Positions 465 to 12,396 of a stretch of 33,792 nt of DNA are shown here, piece by piece. The first letter of the stretch is position 1, and each line of letters opens with the position of its first letter. Source of the stretch: Limisphaerales bacterium (GTDB taxonomy: Bacteria > Verrucomicrobiota > Verrucomicrobiia > Limisphaerales > UBA11358). The notes under the pieces are model-generated. The model made no database searches and was not told where the DNA came from. It was given only the letters and a program-made list of their open reading frames with translations. Location of the stretch: assembly GCA_003134375.1 (NCBI GenBank), contig PLAY01000134.1, forward strand, positions 1-33,792, in the 5' to 3' direction. The position numbers were made by a program, and so were the translations under genes.

Positions 465-533
465 TTTCAGTATTTCCAGAACGAATGAGTTTTCTGTTCC
501 CGAAAATTTTCCGGGTCAAATCAAAGGATGCTT

Positions 534-2180
534 ATGAACTTCATGCTAAACTTGTTTCTCATTGGTGCTGTGAGCGGTGAACCGGCGGGACGCTTGTCCC
601 GCGTCAAGCGGTCAAGATGGTTCATCCTGGCAGGCGCGATCGCGGCAGCAGCGCTGATGGCCGTGCTGTTGGCGCCGATGGGACAAAAAATGTTCCGGGG
701 TGGTGAACGCCAGGCACAGGCCGAAACGCCCAAGGCCGCCGCAAAACAACTGGTGCGGGAGCCGGCCGTGGCGGGGCTGTTTTATCCGAAAGACCCGGCC
801 GAATTGTCACGAATGATTGACCGCCTGCTCGCCGCCGCGCCCACTGAGCCGGTTGGCGACCTTAAAGCCATCGTTTGTCCCCATGCCGGCTACGAGTTTT
901 CCGGTCCGGTCGCGGCCTACTCCTTCAAAAACCTGATTGGACGCCATTTCGACACGGTCATCATTCTGGGGCCGAGCCATTACGCGCTTTTTGACGGGGC
1001 GTCGGTCCCGGCGGTGGATGCCTATCGCACGCCGCTCGGGCTGGTGCCAATCTCTCCCAAAGCCCGGGCGCTGGCAAAAATCAGTCCCTGCCTCAGCGAG
1101 CCTTGCTGTCGGGTGGAACGCCCTGCCTGGTGGCCGCAGTCATCCAAGCCGGCACCCGACCCGGGCAAAGACACGCCGGATACCTGGGAACATTCGGTTG
1201 AAGTCGAGGTGCCATTTTTGCAAAAAGTTTTGACGAACTTTTCCATTTTGCCGGTGGTGTTCGGCAACGTGGATCCCGCGCAGGTGGCGCAGGCGGTGGC
1301 GACGCAACTCGACGACAAAACCCTGATCGTGGTGAGTTCAGATTTGAGCCACTACCATCCCTATGACGAAGCCGAAGCACTGGATGGCCGTTGCGTCAAG
1401 GCAATGTGCAGTCTGGACATCGCGGCCATGGAAAGCCAGGAGGCTTGCGGCAAACTGCCCATTCTGGCGTTGCTGCATCTGGCACACCAGAACGGGTGGC
1501 AGGCACGGTTGCTGGATTATCGCAACAGCGGCGACACCTCGGGCGACAAGAGCCACGGTGTTGTCGGCTACAGCGCCATTGCTTTCTTCGCGCCCGCGCC
1601 GGAAAACTACGCGGCACCGGAAAGAAAGTTACTGCTGGACCTGGCCCGCCGGACCCTGACCTGTGTGGTGACCAATCCGGGCTTGTCGGGATTTGAAGTC
1701 AACGCCAAGAGTGTGCCGCCCCAATTATCGGAAACCAAAGCCTGTTTCGTGACGTTGACGGAAAATGGCGAGTTGCGGGGTTGCATCGGCCACATTTCGC
1801 CGCAGGAACCGCTTTACCAGGCCGTGGTGGACAACGCGCGGAACGCGGCCATCCGCGACCCGCGCTTCCTGCCAGTGCAGCCCGGTGAAACGGGCAAAAT
1901 CAAAATCGAAATCAGCGTGTTGACCGAGCCGAAACCGTTGCCGTTCACATCGCCGGAAGATTTGCTGGCCAAATTGCAGCCCGGCAAGGATGGCGTGGTG
2001 CTCAAGCTTGATGGTCGGGGCGCGACATTTCTGCCCCAAGTCTGGGAGCAACTGCCGGACAAGGTCGAGTTCCTGAATCACCTTTCCGAAAAGGCGGGCT
2101 GTGCGCCCGGGGATTGGCGCGGCAAGGACGTCAGCGTCTCCATCTACCACGTCGAAGCATTCAAGGAATCGGAAAAGTAA
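534..2180 (+). CDS. AmmeMemoRadiSam system fusion: MEMO (protein B) + AMMECR1 (protein A)
   Basis: The N-terminal domain (about residues 75-355) is a MEMO family protein, related in fold to LigB-type extradiol dioxygenases. It shows PHAGYEFSG, LGPSHY, EHSVEVEVPFL and SSDLSHYHPYDEA, which hold the conserved histidines. The C-terminal domain (about 365-545) is AMMECR1, with the diagnostic LRGCIG loop and NARNAAIRDPRF. In many genomes these are separate genes, so this is a natural fusion. Ahead of both is a basic stretch (RLSRVKRSR) and a hydrophobic helix (WFILAGAIAAAALMAVLL), predicting a membrane anchor with the domains on the outer side by the positive-inside rule. The start at 534 is preferred because AAAGGA lies 5 bases before it; ATG 528 is the alternative. 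It leads the cluster with the SpeE-like protein and the radical SAM enzyme. The biochemical role is not established. Confidence 0.93.
   Translation: MNFMLNLFLIGAVSGEPAGRLSRVKRSRWFILAGAIAAAALMAVLLAPMGQKMFRGGERQAQAETPKAAAKQLVREPAVAGLFYPKDPAELSRMIDRLLAAAPTEPVGDLKAIVCPHAGYEFSGPVAAYSFKNLIGRHFDTVIILGPSHYALFDGASVPAVDAYRTPLGLVPISPKARALAKISPCLSEPCCRVERPAWWPQSSKPAPDPGKDTPDTWEHSVEVEVPFLQKVLTNFSILPVVFGNVDPAQVAQAVATQLDDKTLIVVSSDLSHYHPYDEAEALDGRCVKAMCSLDIAAMESQEACGKLPILALLHLAHQNGWQARLLDYRNSGDTSGDKSHGVVGYSAIAFFAPAPENYAAPERKLLLDLARRTLTCVVTNPGLSGFEVNAKSVPPQLSETKACFVTLTENGELRGCIGHISPQEPLYQAVVDNARNAAIRDPRFLPVQPGETGKIKIEISVLTEPKPLPFTSPEDLLAKLQPGKDGVVLKLDGRGATFLPQVWEQLPDKVEFLNHLSEKAGCAPGDWRGKDVSVSIYHVEAFKESEK
585..602. 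repeat. Small GC hairpin near the start of the MEMO-AMMECR1 gene
   Basis: GCGGGAC and GTCCCGC are separated by four bases. They code for the GRLSRV part of the basic stretch just before the membrane helix. It resembles the other short palindromes in this window and may be a small inserted element that became coding. Confidence 0.45.
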
Positions 2181-2192
2181 AAGGAACGTTTG

Positions 2193-4535
2193 ATGGCCGC
2201 CGACACCCCGAATCTCCCGTCTGCTGACAACGGCAGATTGCCGGTGCTTTGGGCGCTCGCCGGGTTGGGACTGGCCTCGGTGATGACGCAGTTGGCGCTG
2301 ATGCGCGAGTTGCTCTGCGCCTTTGCGGGTAATGAAATGGTGCTGGGCATCGCGCTCGGCCTCTGGCTGCTGCTCACGGGCCTGGGAACTTCGCTGGGCC
2401 GGACGGCGGACAAACTCCGAAATCCCCTGGCCGTCCTGTTCACCGCGCAAATCCTCGTTGCCGTGATTCCGCTGGCGCAGGTGTTTGCCGTCCGTGCCCT
2501 GCGCAACGTGGTCTTCGTGCGGGGCGCGGAGGTGGGCGTGACTGGAACCGTCTTGAGCGCCGCGGTTTTGTTGCTGCCGTTTTGCATCGTTGCCGGATAC
2601 ACCCTGACGCTGGCGTGCTCGATTCTCAATCGCCGCGGCGATGCGTCGGGCGCGGGCCGCGTTTATGTCGCCGACAGCTTGGGCAGCGTTGCCGGCGGCG
2701 CGCTGTTCAGCTTCGTGCTGGTGCGGTTTCTCGACCACATCGCGCTGCTCGCCGTGCCCGCCCTGTTGAATCTCGCAGCCGCCGTGTGGCTTGGCCGGGC
2801 AGGGGGGCAACATTTTCCATCGGACACGATGGCAACATTGGAGCGCCGGCCTCCGGTACGGCGCGTTTCTGAGAACACTCAAGACCTGCCGTGCCGGAGG
2901 CCGGCGCTCCGGGAGATTTTCATTTTGACACTGGTTGCGGGCATTGCCGCTTTCGTCTGGCTCGCCCACTCCGACGCGCTCTCGACTGCGCTCCAATTCC
3001 CCGGCCAGAATGTTTTGTTCCGCGCCAACTCGCCTTACGGCCGGCTGGTGGTCACGGAATCGGGCGGCGAGACCAATTTCATCGAGAACGGCATTGCCAT
3101 TGTGTCCACGCCGAACGTAGAGCAGGTGGAGGAAGCCACGCACTATGCCATGAGCCAGCGGCCCGATGCGCGGCGGGTACTGCTGGTTTCAGGCGGCGTT
3201 GCCGGGGTGGCGAAGGAAATCCTCAAATACAACGTCGCCGGGGTGGACTGCGTGGAACTCGACCCGCTCGTCATCGAAACCGGCCGTCGCTTCCTGCCGG
3301 AGCACTTCGCCGATCCGCGCATCCGGGTAATTGCCACTGACGCGCGGCAATTCGTGCGGCAGACGACCAACCGCTACGACGTCGTCATCCTCGCGCTGCC
3401 CGACCCATCCACGGCGCAGCTCAACCGCTTCTTCACGGTCGAATTTTTCAGCGGAGTCAAACAGGTGCTGGCCGATGGTGGTGTGCTCTCGTTCGCGCTG
3501 GGCCGTTACGAGAACTACGTCAGCCCGGAACTGGCGCAACTGCTGGCCTCGGCGAACCGGTCGCTCAAGCAGTCATTCGCCAACATTCTGGCGTTGCCCG
3601 GCGGCCGGGTCTTTTTCCTCGCGTCCGATGGCCCGCTGTACGGCGACATCGCTGCGCGGGTCGAGGCGCAGGGCGTTTCGACGAAGCTCGTGAACCGGCA
3701 TTATCTCGACGCCATGCTCACCGCCGACCGGATGGCAGACATCCAGCGGGCGGTGTCACAACCCGCCGCGCTGAACCGGGATTTCAGTCCGATGCTTTAC
3801 TTTTACCATCTGCGCCATTGGATGAGCCAGTTCACCTTGAGCTTCGGCGCGCTACAGGCGGTATTGTTGCTGTTGCTGCTCGTGTATCTCATTCGATTAC
3901 GTGGACCGGCGCTCGTGCTTTTTGCGTCGGGCTTCGCGGGCTCGGCGCTGGAGATCGTGCTGCTGCTGGCCTTCCAGGTTTTGTGCGGCTCGGTCTATCA
4001 TCAGGTCGGCGTGATCGTGACGGTTTTCATGGTTGGGCTGGCGCTTGGGGCCATGTCAACGAACCGTAGGAGCCGACGTGAGGAGGCTCTAACTGGAGAA
4101 TCCAGAAGTGATCAGAGCCTCCTCACGTCGGCTCCTACAAGTTCCAAGGATTGCAGTGGAAGAAGTTTGATTGTCCTTGCGATGGCCCTTGCCGGTTACG
4201 CCATCCTGCTTCCGCTTTTGCTGCCGCTGCTGAATCGCATGGGAGGCACAACCGCATCGCTCCTGGCGATCAAAGCGATCTTTACATCGCTGACTTTGAT
4301 TCTCGCCGTGCTGGTCGGTGCACAGTTCCCGCTGGCGAACCGGCTGCAGTTCGACGGCACGGCGACGGGCGCGTCACGGCTTTACACGGCGGATTTCGTG
4401 GGCGCATCACTCGGCGCGCTGCTGGCGAGCACGCTGTTGATACCGCTGATAGGCGTGATGGGCGTCTGCCTGCTGACAGCGGGATTGAATGCGCTGGCGG
4501 GCGGCGTTCTGTTTTGGAGAAAGGTTTCGATATGA
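2193..4535 (+). CDS. Multi-TM protein with embedded spermidine synthase-like domain (AmmeMemoRadiSam cluster)
   Basis: About 780 residues. A first hydrophobic half of six helices (about residues 15-205) and one more helix near 240-262 are followed by a Rossmann methyltransferase/spermidine-synthase-like domain (about 270-545), then a second hydrophobic half. The halves look like an internal duplication: AGRVYVADSLGSVAGGAL in the first resembles ASRLYTADFVGASLGALL in the second. The SpeE-like domain keeps VELDPLVIE, but the usual GGGDG motif is altered (VSGGVAGVAKE) and the catalytic Asp region reads VVILALPDPS. True aminopropyltransferase activity is therefore doubtful. The start is ATG 2193 with AAGGAAC just upstream; a TTG at 2190 is less likely. 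It lies 12 bp after the MEMO-AMMECR1 stop and overlaps the next gene by 4 bp (ATGA), so all are probably one operon. Two palindromic elements are translated in frame inside it. Confidence 0.88.
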   Translation: MAADTPNLPSADNGRLPVLWALAGLGLASVMTQLALMRELLCAFAGNEMVLGIALGLWLLLTGLGTSLGRTADKLRNPLAVLFTAQILVAVIPLAQVFAVRALRNVVFVRGAEVGVTGTVLSAAVLLLPFCIVAGYTLTLACSILNRRGDASGAGRVYVADSLGSVAGGALFSFVLVRFLDHIALLAVPALLNLAAAVWLGRAGGQHFPSDTMATLERRPPVRRVSENTQDLPCRRPALREIFILTLVAGIAAFVWLAHSDALSTALQFPGQNVLFRANSPYGRLVVTESGGETNFIENGIAIVSTPNVEQVEEATHYAMSQRPDARRVLLVSGGVAGVAKEILKYNVAGVDCVELDPLVIETGRRFLPEHFADPRIRVIATDARQFVRQTTNRYDVVILALPDPSTAQLNRFFTVEFFSGVKQVLADGGVLSFALGRYENYVSPELAQLLASANRSLKQSFANILALPGGRVFFLASDGPLYGDIAARVEAQGVSTKLVNRHYLDAMLTADRMADIQRAVSQPAALNRDFSPMLYFYHLRHWMSQFTLSFGALQAVLLLLLLVYLIRLRGPALVLFASGFAGSALEIVLLLAFQVLCGSVYHQVGVIVTVFMVGLALGAMSTNRRSRREEALTGESRSDQSLLTSAPTSSKDCSGRSLIVLAMALAGYAILLPLLLPLLNRMGGTTASLLAIKAIFTSLTLILAVLVGAQFPLANRLQFDGTATGASRLYTADFVGASLGALLASTLLIPLIGVMGVCLLTAGLNALAGGVLFWRKVSI
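2840..2910. repeat. Palindromic element, in frame inside the SpeE-like membrane gene
   Basis: Arms 2840-2862 and 2888-2910 match as inverted repeats at 22 of 23 positions (GGAGCGCCGGCCTCCGG type). The translated peptide (core LERRPPVRRVSENTQ) links the first six-helix half to the next helix. The same family recurs between genes at 32499-32569, which supports a dispersed element. Confidence 0.85.
4066..4138. repeat. Perfect 25-bp palindromic element, in frame inside the SpeE-like membrane gene
   Basis: Arms 4066-4090 and 4114-4138 are perfect inverted repeats of 25 bp (GTAGGAGCCGACGTGAGG type) around a 23-base loop. The element is translated as a hydrophilic loop (about TNRRSRREEALTGESRSD) between two membrane helices in the second half of the protein. 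It looks like an insertion tolerated in a loop. Confidence 0.9.
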
Positions 4536-4789
4536 TCAAACTCAACATGGTTTCCATTAAAATCATGCGCTGGAGCGGCTGGCTGTTGCTGCCGCTGGTG
4601 ATGGCCTTCCTGCTGACCGGTTACATCATGGATGGCCGCTACGGGTTCAGCAAACTGCTGGACGAGAAATCCGCGCTGACGTTCCACCGCATGCTGCACC
4701 TGCCGCTGATCGTCCTCGTGGTGGCGCATGTCGTGCCGGCGGTGTATCTTGCCTTCCAGCGATGGGGCTGGATCAGACATCGCGAATAG
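4532..4789 (+). CDS. Small two-helix membrane protein, possible b-type cytochrome fragment
   Basis: 85 residues, starting at the ATG that overlaps the previous stop (ATGA, 4532-4535), so translation is probably coupled. It has two hydrophobic segments, WSGWLLLPLVMAFLLTGYI and LPLIVLVVAHVVPAVYLAF. Three histidines (TFHRMLH and VVAHVV) lie at or inside the second helix, placed as in membrane cytochrome b or DUF4405-like proteins. Heme binding is an inference. The gene sits between the SpeE-like protein and the radical SAM enzyme with 7 bases to the GTG start of the latter, so a role in the same system, for instance electron delivery, is plausible but unproven. Confidence 0.8.
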   Translation: MIKLNMVSIKIMRWSGWLLLPLVMAFLLTGYIMDGRYGFSKLLDEKSALTFHRMLHLPLIVLVVAHVVPAVYLAFQRWGWIRHRE

Positions 4790-4796
4790 ACGTAGT

Positions 4797-6116
4797 GTGA
4801 ACATCGAACATCGAACATCGAACTCTGAACACCAGAACCGGCACTCCGGGTTGACGGGGGGAATTTCGCGGCGCGCTGCCATCGGGCTGGGCGCGGCGGC
4901 CGTGGTGGGATTGGCGGGGGCGGCATCACTGTTCGATCTGTTCTCCGGATGGCGGGAGTCCGAGGCGCCCGCAGGCGTTTTCAAAGGCGACGCTCCGTCG
5001 GGCGAGCTTTGGGAGTTGTGGCAAAAGCGCGGCTGGGTGAAGGAAGGCCGTCATTACCTCAAGCTCGGCCGCAACGTCCAGTGCAAGGTCTGCCCGAACA
5101 ACTGCATCCTTGAACCCGGCGACCGCAGCCATTGCCGCAACAAGGTCAACCGCGACGGCACGCTTTACACGCTGGTTTATGGCAACCCCTGCACCTTCCA
5201 CGTTGACCCGGTTGAGAAAAAGCCGCTGTTCCATTTCCTGCCCGGCACACTGAGCTTTTCCCTCGCCACGTCCGGCTGCGTCTTCCGCTGCCTCAACTGC
5301 CAGAACTGGGAGATTTCGCAGAAGAAACCGGAAGAAACCAAGGACCCGCGCGGCGAGGAGTTGCGCCTGCGCCCGCCGCTGCCTTCGAGCCTTTCGCTCG
5401 AGCAAATGTCGCGGCTCAGCCTGTTCCCGGAAGACGTCGTGTCGGTGACCGAGGCGCTCGGTTGCCCGTCCATTTCCTACACCTATTCCGAGCCGGTGGC
5501 GTTTTACGAATACACGCAGGATACGTGCAAGGCCGCGCGCGACCGGAAGCTCAAAAATATCGTCGTGAGCTGCGGCTCGATCGAAGACCGGGCCGCGCGC
5601 GACCTGTATCAATTTGTGGACGCCGCGCACGTGGACCTGAAGGGTTTTGACGAGGACACGTACCAGAAGCTCAACTCCGGCAAGCTCCAGCCCATCCTCA
5701 ACTTGCTCAAGACGCTCAAGGAACTGGGGGTGTGGGTCGAGATCATCAACCTCGTCGTGCCGACCTACACCGACAACCTGGACACCATCCGCCGCATGTG
5801 CGGCTGGATCGCGAAGGAGCTGGGGCCGGACCGGCCGCTGCACTTCTCACGATTCCACCCGGAGCACAAGCTCACGCACCTGGCGCCCACGCCCGTTGAG
5901 ACGCTCGTGAAAGCGCGCGACTCCGCCCGCGCCGAGGGCTTGGACTACGTTTATATCGGCAACGTGCCCGGCCTCGAAGGAGTGGAGACGACCTGGTGCC
6001 CCAACTGCAAAAAGGCCGTCATCGAGCGCGACATCTTCGCCGTCACCCGCATGAACCTCACGGACGGCAAATGCAATTTCTGCGGGACGAAGATTGCGGG
6101 GGTATGGAAAACATAA
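4797..6116 (+). CDS. amrS: AmmeMemoRadiSam system radical SAM enzyme
   Basis: The enzyme has the AmrS/PflA-like layout. A cysteine-rich leader (CKVCPNNCILEPGDRSHC) is followed by the radical SAM cluster motif CVFRCLNC (CxxxCxxC) that binds the 4Fe-4S cluster and SAM. The central part has SYTYSEPVAFYEY, HVDLKGFDEDTY and HFSRFHPEHKL, typical of the family. The C-terminus has two CxxC pairs (CPNC and CNFC) that resemble a metal-binding ribbon. Before the catalytic part is ISRRAAIGLGAAAVVGLAG, an RR-type (Tat-like) signal or membrane anchor, matching the anchor on the MEMO-AMMECR1 fusion. The start is uncertain: ATG 4728 (overlapping the previous gene), GTG 4797 (chosen, just after the previous stop) or TTG 4851. 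None has a clear ribosome site, and a GAACATC repeat array lies within this region. The substrate is unknown. Confidence 0.93.
   Translation: MNIEHRTSNSEHQNRHSGLTGGISRRAAIGLGAAAVVGLAGAASLFDLFSGWRESEAPAGVFKGDAPSGELWELWQKRGWVKEGRHYLKLGRNVQCKVCPNNCILEPGDRSHCRNKVNRDGTLYTLVYGNPCTFHVDPVEKKPLFHFLPGTLSFSLATSGCVFRCLNCQNWEISQKKPEETKDPRGEELRLRPPLPSSLSLEQMSRLSLFPEDVVSVTEALGCPSISYTYSEPVAFYEYTQDTCKAARDRKLKNIVVSCGSIEDRAARDLYQFVDAAHVDLKGFDEDTYQKLNSGKLQPILNLLKTLKELGVWVEIINLVVPTYTDNLDTIRRMCGWIAKELGPDRPLHFSRFHPEHKLTHLAPTPVETLVKARDSARAEGLDYVYIGNVPGLEGVETTWCPNCKKAVIERDIFAVTRMNLTDGKCNFCGTKIAGVWKT
4798..4840. repeat. GAACATC heptamer array at the 5' end of amrS
   Basis: About four successive seven-base units (GAACATC, later degenerate as GAACTCT and GAACACC) lie between the stop of the small membrane gene and the RR signal of amrS. 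In the amrS frame they read NIEHRTSNSEHQ. The same heptamer builds inverted-repeat elements at 15103-15172, 15876-15977 and 33056-33153. Confidence 0.8.
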
Positions 6117-6790: not shown

Positions 6791-9466
6791 TTGACGGAAG
6801 GCACGTTGCCGGCCAACGAGGCCGTCGAAAATTGGCGGCGGTGGCAGGTGACATCGGTGATGCAGCCTTATGTCGTGCTCGACGGCGAGGGCGATGCCTA
6901 CGTCAGCGGCGACAACAACATGTCCCGGATGCGCAGCCGGGGCGAATCACCCAGTCAAACCATTTCCATTCGCGCACCGGAAAACCAGGCGGTCACCAGG
7001 CGCCTCTTCGTCCCGAAAGGCGATTTGAGCGGCCTGATTCCCGTGCGGTTTAAAATTTCCCCGACGGAGGCAAAGCCGGAGGCCAAGGCGGCGTTTCTGA
7101 CGGCCAAAGAACAATTCTATCGCGGTCTGTTGGACCGGAACATTGCGGGCGCAGCCTGGTTTCGCCACCAACTCGAAATGATTGCGAAGGAGCGGGGCAC
7201 AAATCAGAACCCGCGAAACAATCCGGGAATGAACTGGAACCGCAACCGGCCGCCTGAATTTGAGGACACGTTCAATCTCTTTACCGGCGGGCGTGCCCTG
7301 AGCGAAAATTTGCAACTGGATCGCGCCATGGCGGTGCGCAACGGCACCAACGGAGGCAGTGTCGCCCTCACCAACCTGACCGGTATCACCGTCCGGCAAA
7401 TGGATTGGAAGGCCCTGCTCCACGAGCCGAAGCCGGGACTCGATCCGCTTGCCTCATTCATTCCCGCCGACCAGCACGCATTGTTTTTCCCGTCGTTTCA
7501 AGCCATGGCGGACATGACGGATGAAACCGACGCCAACGGGACACCGGTGCTGCAAATGTTCGAGCCGCGTTCGGAAGACGCCAGTTCGCGCGATCGTTAC
7601 CAGAATCAACTTTGCCTCGGCCTCAACGATCTTTCCCGGTTGCTCGGCCCGCAGGTCGTCGCCAGCGCGGCCTTCACCGGGTCGGATCCGTTCTTGCGCG
7701 TCGGAACGGATGTCGCGGTTTTATTTGAAGCCAGGAATCTGCCACTGCTACAGGCCAGTGTCATTGCCCGGCAAACCGCCGCCCGCACCACCCATCCTGG
7801 CACCAAGGCCGTGAGCGGCGACATCAAGGGAGTTCATTATGTGGGCGTTGTTTCACCGGACCGCGCCGTTTGCTCCTACCTGGCATCGGTATCCAACGTG
7901 GTCTTCGTCACCAATTCGCGCAAGCAGCTCGAAAACCTGGTGCGCACCGCCCAGGGCAAACTGCCGGCGCTCAGTTCACAGGATGAATACCTTTTCTTCC
8001 GCCAACGATACGTGCGCGGTGATGAATCGGAGACGGCCTTCCTCGTGTTGAGCGACGCAACCATCCGCCGCTGGTGCGGTCCGCAATGGCGCATTGCGGA
8101 TTCGCGCCGCACCCGTGCCGCCGCTGTCCTGGCCGAACTGCAGGCCGGTCAGGTTGACGGACTGGTCCGGGGCAAAACTGGCGTCACGAATTTGTCATCG
8201 GACTATTCCACGCCCGATCTGGGCGAACTGGGACTCGCCCCCGCCGGCGTGACGTCCACCACCTATGGCACGCTCAACTTCATGACGCCCATTTCGGAAA
8301 TTCCACTGGCAACCGTTACGAGCAACGAAGCCAATGCCTATGAACGCTGGCGCGACGGTTATCAAAACAACTGGCAGCAATTCTTCGATCCCATTGCCGT
8401 GCGCTTTTCCATCTCCAAACAGCGCTTGAGCACCGAACTCACCGTCATGCCGTTGATCATGGCCTCAAGATACAATTCCTTCACCGCCTTTGCCACCGGT
8501 GCACAGATTGCCCCGGACGCCGGCGACCCGCATACGAATGTCCTCGCCCGGCTGGCGTTTGCGGTCAACAACCAGTCGCAATCGGTTCAGGAGGCCGGAA
8601 ACTTTGTCGGCAACATGGCCCCGGGCTTGAAGGCGAACTTTTTGAGCTGGCTCGGACAATCCGTGACCCTCTACGCCGACGCCGACCCGTTCTGGAGCGA
8701 ACTTGCCGCCGCCACCAACGTGAATGTGTTCATGGAACATTCCCTGGCCCGCCTGCCGGTCGGACTGTATTGCGAAGTGAAAAATTCACTGGGGGTCGCC
8801 GCCTTCCTCACCGCCGTGCATGCGTATGCGGACCAGTCCGCCCCGCAAATGACGGTCTGGAAAAATCTCGAATACGCGGGCCGGCCTTATGTCAAAATTG
8901 CCTCTTCAAAAACCTCCCTGCAGTCCGAGCCGGACGAAAACTGGACGGTTTATTATGCGGTCACGCCGGATTCACTGACCGTGACCCTGAGTGAAGACCT
9001 GCTGAAGCGGGCATTGGACCGGCAGATCGCCCGGAGCAGCACGAACGCGCCGGCCGTTTCCGGTGTGAAATCGTGGCTGGGCCGCAGCCTTGGCTTGCAG
9101 GTGGACAGGAAATTCATTGATGTCCTGATCAAGACCATGCAGGACGATTACCAGGCCCATCTGCAAATGCTTGCCTGGAACAACCTGCCCATCCTGAACG
9201 AATGGAAACGCCTCTATCCGGACAAGGACCCGGTGAAACTGCACGAGCAACTCTGGGGCGTTAAACTCCTCTGTCCCGGCGGCGGCATGTATGTGTGGAA
9301 CGACCGATGGCACACCATGGAATCCACCGTGTTCGGCCATCCCGGCGAACCCAAATCCGGCACGGCTTCGCTGTTCCCAGGCATGACCGACGTCAACCTC
9401 GGCATCACGTTTGAAGATCAGGGGCTTTCCGCCAAAGGCATCATGAATCGCAACGCAACGCAATAG
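6791..9466 (+). CDS. Large exported protein of unknown function
   Basis: At least 891 residues with no domain I can name with confidence; parts such as FIPADQHALFFPSF and DVAVLFEARN recall DUF3352-like lipid-chaperone-type proteins, but this is weak. The stretch just upstream in the same frame reads VAALLLQTAAAGDAYYNLP, which looks like the end of a signal peptide with AAA before the cut. There is no good start codon in that frame. The first plausible ATG (6657) opens a typical signal start (MAVIGEFVFRHIVLVLAAAF) in a different frame, so a one-base frameshift or sequence error near 6700-6727 is suspected. TTG 6791 is only the first formal start. The gene ends 22 bases before the convergent hpnJ stop. 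Confidence 0.75.
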   Translation: MTEGTLPANEAVENWRRWQVTSVMQPYVVLDGEGDAYVSGDNNMSRMRSRGESPSQTISIRAPENQAVTRRLFVPKGDLSGLIPVRFKISPTEAKPEAKAAFLTAKEQFYRGLLDRNIAGAAWFRHQLEMIAKERGTNQNPRNNPGMNWNRNRPPEFEDTFNLFTGGRALSENLQLDRAMAVRNGTNGGSVALTNLTGITVRQMDWKALLHEPKPGLDPLASFIPADQHALFFPSFQAMADMTDETDANGTPVLQMFEPRSEDASSRDRYQNQLCLGLNDLSRLLGPQVVASAAFTGSDPFLRVGTDVAVLFEARNLPLLQASVIARQTAARTTHPGTKAVSGDIKGVHYVGVVSPDRAVCSYLASVSNVVFVTNSRKQLENLVRTAQGKLPALSSQDEYLFFRQRYVRGDESETAFLVLSDATIRRWCGPQWRIADSRRTRAAAVLAELQAGQVDGLVRGKTGVTNLSSDYSTPDLGELGLAPAGVTSTTYGTLNFMTPISEIPLATVTSNEANAYERWRDGYQNNWQQFFDPIAVRFSISKQRLSTELTVMPLIMASRYNSFTAFATGAQIAPDAGDPHTNVLARLAFAVNNQSQSVQEAGNFVGNMAPGLKANFLSWLGQSVTLYADADPFWSELAAATNVNVFMEHSLARLPVGLYCEVKNSLGVAAFLTAVHAYADQSAPQMTVWKNLEYAGRPYVKIASSKTSLQSEPDENWTVYYAVTPDSLTVTLSEDLLKRALDRQIARSSTNAPAVSGVKSWLGRSLGLQVDRKFIDVLIKTMQDDYQAHLQMLAWNNLPILNEWKRLYPDKDPVKLHEQLWGVKLLCPGGGMYVWNDRWHTMESTVFGHPGEPKSGTASLFPGMTDVNLGITFEDQGLSAKGIMNRNATQ

Positions 9467-9487: not shown

Positions 9488-10942
9488 TCAAGCCGTTGCA
9501 GCCCGGGACGCGGCCAGGTCGGCCTTCCGCTCGCGCAGGCTCTTGAAGAATTCATAGCCTTCGCGCAATCGGCGGACACAGACGTCCTTGTCCTCCAGCA
9601 TGGTCTTGATGATGCGCAGAATCGGTTTCGGACGGAGATAATAGCTACGGTAGAAGCGGTCCACTTCCTCAAAAATCTTGTCCTTGCTGAGGCCGGGATA
9701 TTCCAGCGTGCTTTGCTGCAAACCGCCGGCTTCCACCAAGTCGGTCTTGTCCTTCTTCACGAACCAGCCGTTTTGCCTGGCCATTTCGTAAAGTTCCGTG
9801 CCCGGATACGGGGCGGCGAGTGAAACCTGCAGGCTGAACACGTCGAGTTCCTTGGCAAAGTTGATGGTGTTCTCGATGGATTGCTGCGTCTCGACCGGCA
9901 GGCCAAGGATGAACGTGCCATGAATCACCACACCGGCCTGATGGCAGGACTTGGTGAACCGGCGCATTTCGTCCATGGTCACGCCCTTTTTGATGCGGGT
10001 GAGAATGTCGTCGTTGCCGCTTTCGTAGCCGACCAAGAACAGGCGCAGGCCGTTGTCCTTGAAGGATTTTATCGTGTCATAATCGAGGTTCGCGCGGCTG
10101 TTGCAGGACCAGTGGATGCCGAGCGGGCCGAGTTTTTTGGCGATTTCGCGGGCGCGCGGGAGGTTCGCGGTAAACGTGTCGTCGTCGAAGAAAAATTCCT
10201 GCACCTGCGGGAAGAGTTTCTTCATGTAGGCCATTTCGTCGGCGACGTTTTGCGGCGAGCGGACGCGGTATTTGTGTCCGCCGATGGTCTGCGGCCAGAG
10301 GCAGAAGGTGCATTGCGCCGGGCAGCCGCGGCCGGTGTACATGCTGATGTAAGGATGCAGCAGGTAACCGATGAAATACTTTTCGATCTGGAGGTCGCGC
10401 TTGTAAACGTCCGCCACCCACGGGAGCGTGTCCATGTCCTGGATCATCTCGCGCTCGGGGTTGTGTTTGATTTTGCCGTCCTTGTCCTTGTAGGAAAGCC
10501 CGGCGATGGTCGCGAGGTCGCGGTCTTCGGCGACTTCCTTGCAGGTGAAATCAAATTCCTTGCGGCCCACCCAGTCAATCGCGGGCGAGGCCTTCAGTGT
10601 TTCCGTCGGCAACACCATGGTGTGCGCGCCGACGAAACCAATTTTGGTGGCGGGCTTCTGCGCCTTGATGGCCTCGGCCACCTTGCAATCGTTTTTCAAC
10701 GACGGCGTGGAGGTATTGATGATGACGTGATCGTAATCCTTCGCGATGCGCAGGGTTTCCTGCATGCCGATATTGTGCGGCGGGCAGTCGAGCAGCCGGG
10801 AATTCGGCGTGAGCGCGGCGGGTTGCGCAAGCCAGGTGGGATACCAATAGCTGGTGACTTCGCGCCGCGCCTGATAACGCGCCCCGGCGCCGCCGTCGAA
10901 ACCGTCAAAGCTCGGCGGTGAAAGGTAAAGGGTTCGGCTCAT
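9488..10942 (-). CDS. hpnJ: Hopanoid biosynthesis radical SAM protein HpnJ
   Basis: 484 residues, matching the HpnJ family over its length. The N-terminal part is a B12-binding-like Rossmann domain (IINTSTPS, KIGFVGAHTMVLP). The radical SAM domain follows with the cluster motif GRGCPAQCTFCLWPQT, then FFFDDDTFTAN and VGYESGNDDILTRIKKG. HpnJ is known to be needed for forming the cyclitol ether head group of bacteriohopanetetrol, acting on the glucosaminyl intermediate. It is the last gene of a minus-strand unit, 32 bases after hpnH. The glycosyltransferase (HpnI) and deacetylase (HpnK) partners are not in the window. The start ATG at 10942 gives the expected MSRTLYLSPPSFDGFDGG terminus. Confidence 0.93.
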   Translation of the reverse strand: MSRTLYLSPPSFDGFDGGAGARYQARREVTSYWYPTWLAQPAALTPNSRLLDCPPHNIGMQETLRIAKDYDHVIINTSTPSLKNDCKVAEAIKAQKPATKIGFVGAHTMVLPTETLKASPAIDWVGRKEFDFTCKEVAEDRDLATIAGLSYKDKDGKIKHNPEREMIQDMDTLPWVADVYKRDLQIEKYFIGYLLHPYISMYTGRGCPAQCTFCLWPQTIGGHKYRVRSPQNVADEMAYMKKLFPQVQEFFFDDDTFTANLPRAREIAKKLGPLGIHWSCNSRANLDYDTIKSFKDNGLRLFLVGYESGNDDILTRIKKGVTMDEMRRFTKSCHQAGVVIHGTFILGLPVETQQSIENTINFAKELDVFSLQVSLAAPYPGTELYEMARQNGWFVKKDKTDLVEAGGLQQSTLEYPGLSKDKIFEEVDRFYRSYYLRPKPILRIIKTMLEDKDVCVRRLREGYEFFKSLRERKADLAASRAATA

Positions 10943-10974
10943 TTGAATTCCAAAAATTTCCGTGGCGAAGCAGT

Positions 10975-12396
10975 TTATTCCGCCTTCTTCGCGTCCTTGA
11001 TTTTCGCCAGCAAATCGTCGCGTTCGGAGGTGTCGCTCGTGCCGCAGTGACTGCCGACATGCGTCTCAGGGTGTTCATCTTCCTTGCGCGAGAATGCGCC
11101 GCGTGCGCCGGCAGCGGGTGAATTGATCGCAGCCTTCGCCTCGGCCAGATGGCCTTTGCCGATGGTGACACCGTTGTAAGCGCGCTGCGCCAATTCCGGT
11201 GAGGATGGAAACGGCCTGGGTTTCGCGCCGAAATTGTATTTTATGTTTTTCCAGTTGTCGCCGCTCTGATAATTCGTGCCGAGCGCGCCGCTGGGGTCGT
11301 AGCCGCAGTGGACCATGCAGTTTTCGCAACGCGGGTCGCGCGCGACGCCGTCCACGACGCCGTATTTGTCCCATTGCACCTTCGTGAGCATTTCCTGGTA
11401 GCCGTCGTAATGGCCGTCCGTCATCAGATAACACGGCGCTTTCCAGCCCTTGATGTTGTAAGTGGGGATGGCCCACGCGGTGCAGGTCAACTCGCGTTTG
11501 CCGGCGAGAAACTCCTGATACGGCACCGTGCCGAAAATCGTGAACGCCTTGCCCCAATCGAGAATCTTCGCGAACTTCTGCCGCGTCATCCGGCGCGTGA
11601 GGAAAAAGTTTTCGGGCTGTTTGCCGAGCCGCGTGACCATGTCTTTCTTTGCCGCGTCGTATTCGTAACCGGGCGAAATCGTGTGGCCGTCCACTTCGAG
11701 CGAACTCAAGAACTTGAACATGTCCTCGATTTCCGCCACGTCAGTCTCCTTATAGACAGTCGTGTTCGTCGCGACCTGGTAGCCGAGAATCTTCGCCATT
11801 TTGATGGCTTCGATGCATTCCTTGAACACGCCTTCGCGCTCGACGATGAGGTCGTGCGTGAATTCCAGTCCATCCACGTGGACGTTCCAATACATCCATT
11901 TTGTCGGGCGGATGACCACTTTGCTTCGCGCCGCGGCATCGGACTTGCGGATGGTCTCGGCGTCCTTGTCGGAAATCAGTTTCTGGTCCAGCAGCTTTTT
12001 CAGTTTCGGCTCCACTGCCGGCGAGTAAATCGCGGCGAGGTAATCCCGCATTTTCTTCCGCATGAACATGGCGTTCGTGCAGATGTAAATGACCCGGTTT
12101 TGCTGAAGCAGCCCGGCGACGAGTTCCTCAATCTTCGGATAAATCAGCGGTTCACCGCCGCAAATGCTGACCATCGGCGCGTCACATTCCATCGCCACCG
12201 CGAGGCATTTTTCCAGCGGCACCATGTCCTTGAGCGATGTGGAGTATTCGCGGATGCGCCCGCAGCCGGTGCAGGTGAGATTGCACGTGTGCAGCGGTTC
12301 GAGTTGCAGCACCATGGCAAACTTCGGCGTCTTGCGCAGTTTGTGTTTGATGATGTGACTGGCGATTTTCGTCGTCAGCGCAAGTGGGAATCGCAT
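10975..12396 (-). CDS. hpnH: Adenosylhopane synthase, radical SAM protein HpnH
   Basis: HpnH joins the 5'-deoxyadenosyl group to diploptene to make adenosylhopane, the first side-chain step for C35 hopanoids. The protein has LEPLHTCNLTCTGCGRI with Cys38, Cys42 and Cys45 as the cluster ligands, then SICGGEPLIYP, HVDGLEFTHD, TISPGYEYD and CENCMVHCGYDPSG, all typical of the family. At 473 residues it is longer than the usual 330-390. Two additions explain this: a charged insertion at about residues 118-165, between the FMRKKM helix and the WNVHVDG strand, and a hydrophilic tail of about 80 residues. It is preceded by a small lipoprotein gene 4 bases away and followed by hpnJ, and no squalene-hopene cyclase is close by. 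Start ATG 12396 gives MRFPLALTTKIASHIIKHKL, as in the family. Confidence 0.94.
   Translation of the reverse strand: MRFPLALTTKIASHIIKHKLRKTPKFAMVLQLEPLHTCNLTCTGCGRIREYSTSLKDMVPLEKCLAVAMECDAPMVSICGGEPLIYPKIEELVAGLLQQNRVIYICTNAMFMRKKMRDYLAAIYSPAVEPKLKKLLDQKLISDKDAETIRKSDAAARSKVVIRPTKWMYWNVHVDGLEFTHDLIVEREGVFKECIEAIKMAKILGYQVATNTTVYKETDVAEIEDMFKFLSSLEVDGHTISPGYEYDAAKKDMVTRLGKQPENFFLTRRMTRQKFAKILDWGKAFTIFGTVPYQEFLAGKRELTCTAWAIPTYNIKGWKAPCYLMTDGHYDGYQEMLTKVQWDKYGVVDGVARDPRCENCMVHCGYDPSGALGTNYQSGDNWKNIKYNFGAKPRPFPSSPELAQRAYNGVTIGKGHLAEAKAAINSPAAGARGAFSRKEDEHPETHVGSHCGTSDTSERDDLLAKIKDAKKAE

Follow-up and report, generated by a model that had tools for sequence, protein, structure and literature searches.

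The AmmeMemoRadiSam system is a known, widespread but obscure trio of protein families, MEMO, AMMECR1 and a radical S-adenosylmethionine (SAM) enzyme, whose chemistry is, to our knowledge, unsolved. In its signal-less forms it comprises the families described by the curated NCBIfam profiles TIGR04335, TIGR04336 and TIGR04337. MEMO relatives range from archaea to humans, and a dioxygenase-like fold is set out in a MEMO1 review (PMC7694686); a 2020 eLife article mentions 'recently-described Memo-Ammecr1 systems', citing Burroughs 2019 (PMC7159879). Here, we analyse a 33,792-nucleotide stretch (the window) of contig PLAY01000134.1 from a Limisphaerales bacterium (assembly GCA_003134375.1), in which a four-gene cluster probably encodes an exported, membrane-bound variant of this system. 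While the same three enzyme families are recognised here by the same curated cut-offs, the system of the window differs from the signal-less one in having Tat- (twin-arginine translocation) or signal-like N-termini, MEMO and AMMECR1 in a single chain and two additional membrane partners, and in forming a separate clade. The trio itself is thus not new, but the exported form with membrane partners would be new as a variant: a literature search covering its sources in part found no exported AmmeMemoRadiSam form, with the caveat that the SpeE association may be in Burroughs et al. 2019 (J Biol Chem), and a search on the phrase 'periplasmic radical SAM' returned no paper. The features of the cluster are as follows:

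528 to 2180, plus strand: MEMO-AMMECR1 fusion (AmmeMemoRadiSam proteins B and A as a single chain), 550 residues counted from the first ATG
615 to 677, plus strand: hydrophobic N-terminal anchor or signal of the fusion by hydropathy, approximately residues 30 to 50
759 to 1577 and 1641 to 2162, plus strand: Memo and AMMECR1 parts of the fusion, respectively, by profile matches
2193 to 4535, plus strand: SpeE-MFS, a membrane protein resembling the major facilitator superfamily (MFS), with 14 hydrophobic helices and a central SpeE-like domain
2973 to 3842, plus strand: SpeE-like domain (residues 261 to 550), predicted to be extramembrane on the outer side
4532 to 4789, plus strand: small membrane protein of 85 residues and two helices, a predicted half-cytochrome b (G16/G30, H52/H66)
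4685 to 4687, plus strand: codon of the invariant His52 of the small protein
4727 to 4729, plus strand: codon of the invariant His66 of the small protein
4797 to 6116, plus strand: AmmeMemoRadiSam-family radical SAM enzyme, starting at GTG 4797 or TTG 4851
4866 to 4940, plus strand: Tat-like signal of the radical SAM enzyme, with SRR preceding a hydrophobic segment
5277 to 5300, plus strand: radical SAM cluster motif CxxxCxxC

A preliminary description of this DNA had proposed a membrane-bound four-part pathway encoded by tightly packed genes, and the gene set and its spacing (12 bp, a 4-bp overlap and 7 bp) are borne out by the coordinates and family matches. All three enzyme families pass their curated cut-offs, with the fusion scoring 228 bits against TIGR04336 (cut-off 26) and 189.7 against TIGR04335 (cut-off 99), and the radical SAM protein scoring 336.9 bits against TIGR04337 (cut-off 220). 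Outside its own family, the radical SAM enzyme matches glycyl-radical activases best. Its start is ambiguous, as GTG 4797 sits within an AACATCG-type repeat and TTG 4851 is a possible alternative; the repeat (4797-4840) encodes an NIEHRTSN-like peptide, and similar peptides are found at the ends of other open reading frames in the window.

Export of the radical SAM enzyme is fairly well supported by its N-terminus, where, as in Tat substrates, a twin-basic motif precedes a hydrophobic segment, and tatC was found in the same genome. The segment had been described as an anchor; its presence holds, but it reads as a Tat-like signal instead. We placed the enzyme in a tree of 113 rows (the incomplete row L098 was excluded from 114), which was built by a quick method with a midpoint root and carries a long-branch warning (L052, L150 and L158 among others). 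By an author-made Tat pattern of a twin-basic pair plus a hydrophobic segment, as opposed to a trained predictor, 81 rows passed, all of them in a single clade of 86 (Shimodaira-Hasegawa-like approximate likelihood ratio test 87), compared to 0/27 outside it. The twin-basic pair was RR in 54 rows, RK in 23 and KR in 4, and the five clade rows which did not pass are incomplete (L127), have an unclear N-terminus (L095) or carry PRR (L082) or SRG/SRS (L128 and L131). A looser test for RR only also flagged L047 and L048, both of which have no hydrophobic segment. The CxxxCxxC motif is intact in 86/86 clade rows, including the enzyme of the window.

The same division appears in a survey of 141 genomes of the class, 36 of which have a radical SAM match above the cut-off; the N-terminus was read for at least one such gene in each. 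Eighteen of the 36 are of the exported type, with a Tat-like signal in 17 and a plain hydrophobic N-terminus in G027, and the other 18, with one above-cut-off gene each, showed no signal at the radical SAM N-terminus. The window's own genome has both kinds, as a second radical SAM gene with an adjacent MEMO gene, neither with a signal, lies on another contig (L046). That set adjoins a more distantly related MFS/SpeE protein and genes which we identified, by reading the sequence, as ribD/ribE-like riboflavin-biosynthesis genes; a riboflavin link was considered and set aside, as these genes were seen beside this one signal-less locus. Elsewhere, L150 encodes a radical SAM protein (7293-8411) with a plain hydrophobic, not Tat-like, N-terminus beside a lipoprotein-like MEMO-AMMECR1. 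L188 encodes another kind of radical SAM protein (2147-3211), which bears an evident Tat-like signal, has no NCBIfam match at E<=1e-10 and adjoins a MEMO whose N-terminus is signal-like. The idea that a second Tat-signal radical SAM family is a partner was nevertheless discarded, since L188 is a single locus and its relative in L091 has no such signal.

That the four genes belong together is well supported. The preliminary description had proposed a survey of their co-occurrence, and in the class survey the four families were found to be co-inherited: SpeE-MFS (called at E<=1e-60, with up to eight candidates scored per genome) is present in 18/18 exported-type genomes and 0/123 others, and the small gene (up to 38 candidates scored) in 13/18 and 0/123, respectively. 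We also clustered the neighbours within 8 kb around 81 loci, namely the window and the best 80 of 458 relatives. The families recurring widely on the same strand were the radical SAM enzyme, SpeE-MFS, MEMO/AMMECR1 and the small protein, and other clusters of at least 10 loci matched none of the four models and are presumably of shadow-frame origin. SpeE-MFS was found at 61 loci, AMMECR1 at 49, the small gene at 40 and MEMO at 33, with many contigs ending within the cluster. Among the 66 loci with at least 2.5 kb of upstream sequence, SpeE-MFS is present in 54, and in the remaining 12 it was found elsewhere in the genome in every case (once in two pieces). The complete order of MEMO-AMMECR1, SpeE-MFS, small gene and radical SAM gene on a single strand was seen at 24 of the 48 loci whose upstream sequence extends for 6 kb or more.

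Could four ordinary housekeeping genes have become linked by chance or by lineage alone? In favour of this, four class genomes (G003, G011, G020 and G047) have the genes split over three sites, one holding MEMO-AMMECR1 and SpeE-MFS, one the radical SAM gene and one the small gene, which is the kind of displacement that had been named in advance as counting against a partnership. However, all four genes are retained in each of these genomes, and together with the survey counts for SpeE-MFS and the recurrent gene order, this leaves chance linkage with a next to negligible probability. A second circumstance named in advance, trios without the partner genes, does occur: none of 20 further signal-less radical SAM loci had SpeE-MFS or the small gene, and adding six earlier ones (L046-L051) gives a SpeE protein in 1/26. 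These trios, however, form a different clade.

The MEMO-AMMECR1 chains are consistent with an exported system as well. Their N-termini are mostly signal, anchor or lipobox-like, with a hydrophobic signal or anchor segment in 35/50 rows by hydropathy at a threshold of our own, and each of the 33 MEMO frames in the neighbour clustering belonged to a single MEMO-AMMECR1 chain. Matches above 500 bits were found in the 14 genomes whose radical SAM enzyme is of the same subtype as that of the window, and also in G045. A weaker chain adjoins the radical SAM gene in G025, G027 and G052.

The second gene had been described as a multi-TM (transmembrane) protein with a SpeE-like domain, which stands but can be refined to a probable MFS-type protein with the domain inserted between two seven-helix halves. 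It passes the cut-off for fused MFS/spermidine synthases (MFS_SpdSyn, NF037959; 59.2 bits, cut-off 40), with which it shares MFS-like helices and a SpeE-like domain, and that of Pfam Spermine_synth (88.5, cut-off 22.9). It differs from the former family in the position of the domain between the halves, in having no GGGDG acid and in being confined, at E<=1e-60, to the 18 exported-type genomes among the 141 surveyed. Two palindromic repeats lie in frame within the gene, at 2840-2910 (arms of 23 nt, 96% complementary) and 4066-4138 (25 nt, 100%), both in expected large cytosolic loops; an arm of the latter has 25 genomic sites at up to 3 mismatches, two of which are the window's own arms, compared to 0 for a reversed control.

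One alternative is that SpeE-MFS is a true aminopropyltransferase or polyamine exporter, with an extracellular polyamine or polyamine-lipid as the target modified by the cluster. Indeed, both fold and sequence of the domain match spermidine synthases, and Asp401, aligned with what we take to be their catalytic aspartate, is kept in 42/57 sequences. The protein of the window, on the other hand, has Ala at 401; the acid of the GGGDG motif at position 336 (D in 1inl, E in 1uir and 3anx) is replaced in 57/57 by L, V, I, M, F or A; and the spermidine synthase profile TIGR00417 (speE) gives 90.8 bits, below its cut-off of 249.55. We therefore regard the polyamine explanation as very unlikely and the domain as probably not a spermidine synthase. 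Since the acid is lost while E355 (56/57, one D) and D383 (57/57) are kept, positions which we assume to bind the ribose and the adenine side of the nucleoside, the domain is likely to bind a nucleoside and unlikely to transfer an aminopropyl group. We infer that the domain handles SAM or a nucleoside, and the preliminary suggestion that it could bind either is compatible with the two kept residues.

A further point, absent from the preliminary description, is the predicted outward orientation of the system as a whole, in contrast to the cytosolic trio: it looks periplasmic because of the Tat-like signal, the MEMO/AMMECR1 signal or anchor segments and the SpeE-like domain, which positive-inside sums (18.7 vs 4.9) place outside. 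It could be argued instead that the proteins are merely tethered to the membrane, with a cytosolic radical SAM domain and the small protein as a haem-free anchor. In favour of this, SAM and low-potential electron donors are cytosolic. The Tat-exported redox systems FdnGHI and MsrPQ also set a Tat-signal iron-sulfur (Fe-S) enzyme beside a small or cytochrome b membrane partner, as here, and neither these nor PceAB is known to include a radical SAM enzyme. PceAB, in which PceA is a dehalogenase with a Tat signal, has the same arrangement and lends weight to tethering, as its small membrane partner PceB is portrayed as an anchor, with no evidence of its own cofactors and no haem described (PMC10624902). 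Against tethering, the twin-basic motif ahead of the hydrophobic segment predicts an N-in/C-out orientation, the MEMO/AMMECR1 N-termini and the predicted outward position of the SpeE-like domain agree with this, and an anchor would not need two invariant histidines in H-x13-H spacing. On these grounds we consider tethering unlikely.

These histidines bring us to the small protein, for which an electron-carrying role had been suggested. H52, H66 and G30 are each conserved in 41/41 members, H56 in 34/41 and G16 in 33/41 (Ser in the other 8), giving an invariant H-x13-H on one helix and a near-invariant G-x13-G on the other. We take these spacings to be those of cytochrome b helices B/D and A/C, respectively, and they would be common to cytochrome b of bc1/b6f and cytochrome b561. 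An electron-carrier role gains support because of this resemblance, and 20/41 members give weak to moderate matches to Pfam cytochrome b561 (PF01292) at E<=1 (best 8.5e-6), while the window's own copy does not match at that threshold. The protein differs from these cytochromes in having two helices alone, so that a homodimer would be needed. Folded as a hairpin, it would bring G30 to about the same depth as H52 and G16 to about that of H66, and a parallel homodimer could form a two-haem bundle. An AlphaFold2 monomer is indeed a two-helix hairpin (predicted local distance difference test 91.9), uninformative on haem, and no relative emerged when solved structures were searched with a profile, the one match (E 0.086) being to an unrelated protein.

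Taken together, the conserved order, co-occurrence and signals support a membrane-bound four-part pathway well, and from the sequences one can envisage how it might work. The radical SAM enzyme would, with good confidence, have its Fe-S cluster folded in the cytosol, be exported by Tat and be retained on the periplasmic side of the inner membrane. By a narrow margin of judgement, we favour a dimer of the small protein as a four-helix, two-haem cytochrome b-like bundle that would pass electrons across the membrane to the radical SAM enzyme, with the membrane potential helping the outward push. More tentatively, and with our doubts prevailing, the MFS part and the outward SpeE-like domain might supply SAM to the periplasm or retrieve the spent nucleoside. 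MEMO-AMMECR1 and the radical SAM enzyme would share an extracytoplasmic substrate, possibly a membrane lipid, a quinone or an envelope protein. The complete extracytoplasmic pathway, with a Tat-exported radical SAM enzyme, a dedicated MFS transporter that handles SAM or its product by way of the outward SpeE-like domain and a minimal homodimeric di-haem cytochrome b powering it, is likewise a tentative proposal, possible but somewhat improbable as a whole.

Several points weigh against the exported pathway. We know of no periplasmic SAM source, and the potentials of haem b and quinol lie high relative to the low potential that a radical SAM cluster needs for its reduction. The window's 85-residue protein had nothing above any cut-off in NCBIfam and Pfam profile scans, and a fold search with it gave generic, unspecific hairpins. 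The small gene is absent from 5/18 exported-type genomes (G025, G027, G045, G052 and G054, of which G045 and G054 are 74% and 75% complete) and from most Desulfobacterota-type loci. The pair is RK or KR in 27/81 Tat-pattern rows, and L128 and L131 have SRG/SRS. Exceptions are G001 and G036 (L141 and L142), where neither an exported radical SAM enzyme nor SpeE-MFS accompanies an exported-type MEMO-AMMECR1 that scores above 500 bits and has a signal-like N-terminus. At L046, two genes separate the signal-less radical SAM gene from the MFS/SpeE protein encoded upstream of it, and this protein was not reported at E<=1e-60. Finally, neighbour clustering revealed no recurrent substrate gene near the cluster, with smaller clusters (e.g., of 7, 6 or 4-5 loci) not all inspected.

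Two neighbouring features were also considered as links. The hopanoid radical SAM genes hpnJ and hpnH are adjacent at 9488-12396 on the minus strand, but no neighbour cluster of at least four loci included the window's hpn genes. Frames with 7, 8 and 3 CxxCH motifs lie near MEMO-AMMECR1 in L067 (3552-5705), L071 (3473-4957) and L146 (14727-16001), respectively; a multihaem cytochrome link was rejected, as frames with at least three such motifs were found beside the cluster in three lineages alone (L038/L067, L040/L071 and L146).

A form that faces outwards, with one partner always and another often present, narrows the location of the substrate, and it offers two testable cofactors, namely haem and SAM or a nucleoside. 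If radical SAM chemistry does run outside the cytosol, SAM must reach there; we know of no bacterial SAM exporter, and a broad literature search does not settle the point. The outer face of the membrane would be an unusual place for radical chemistry of this sort and, if our proposal is true, the chemistry of MEMO and AMMECR1 would gain a defined location and partners.
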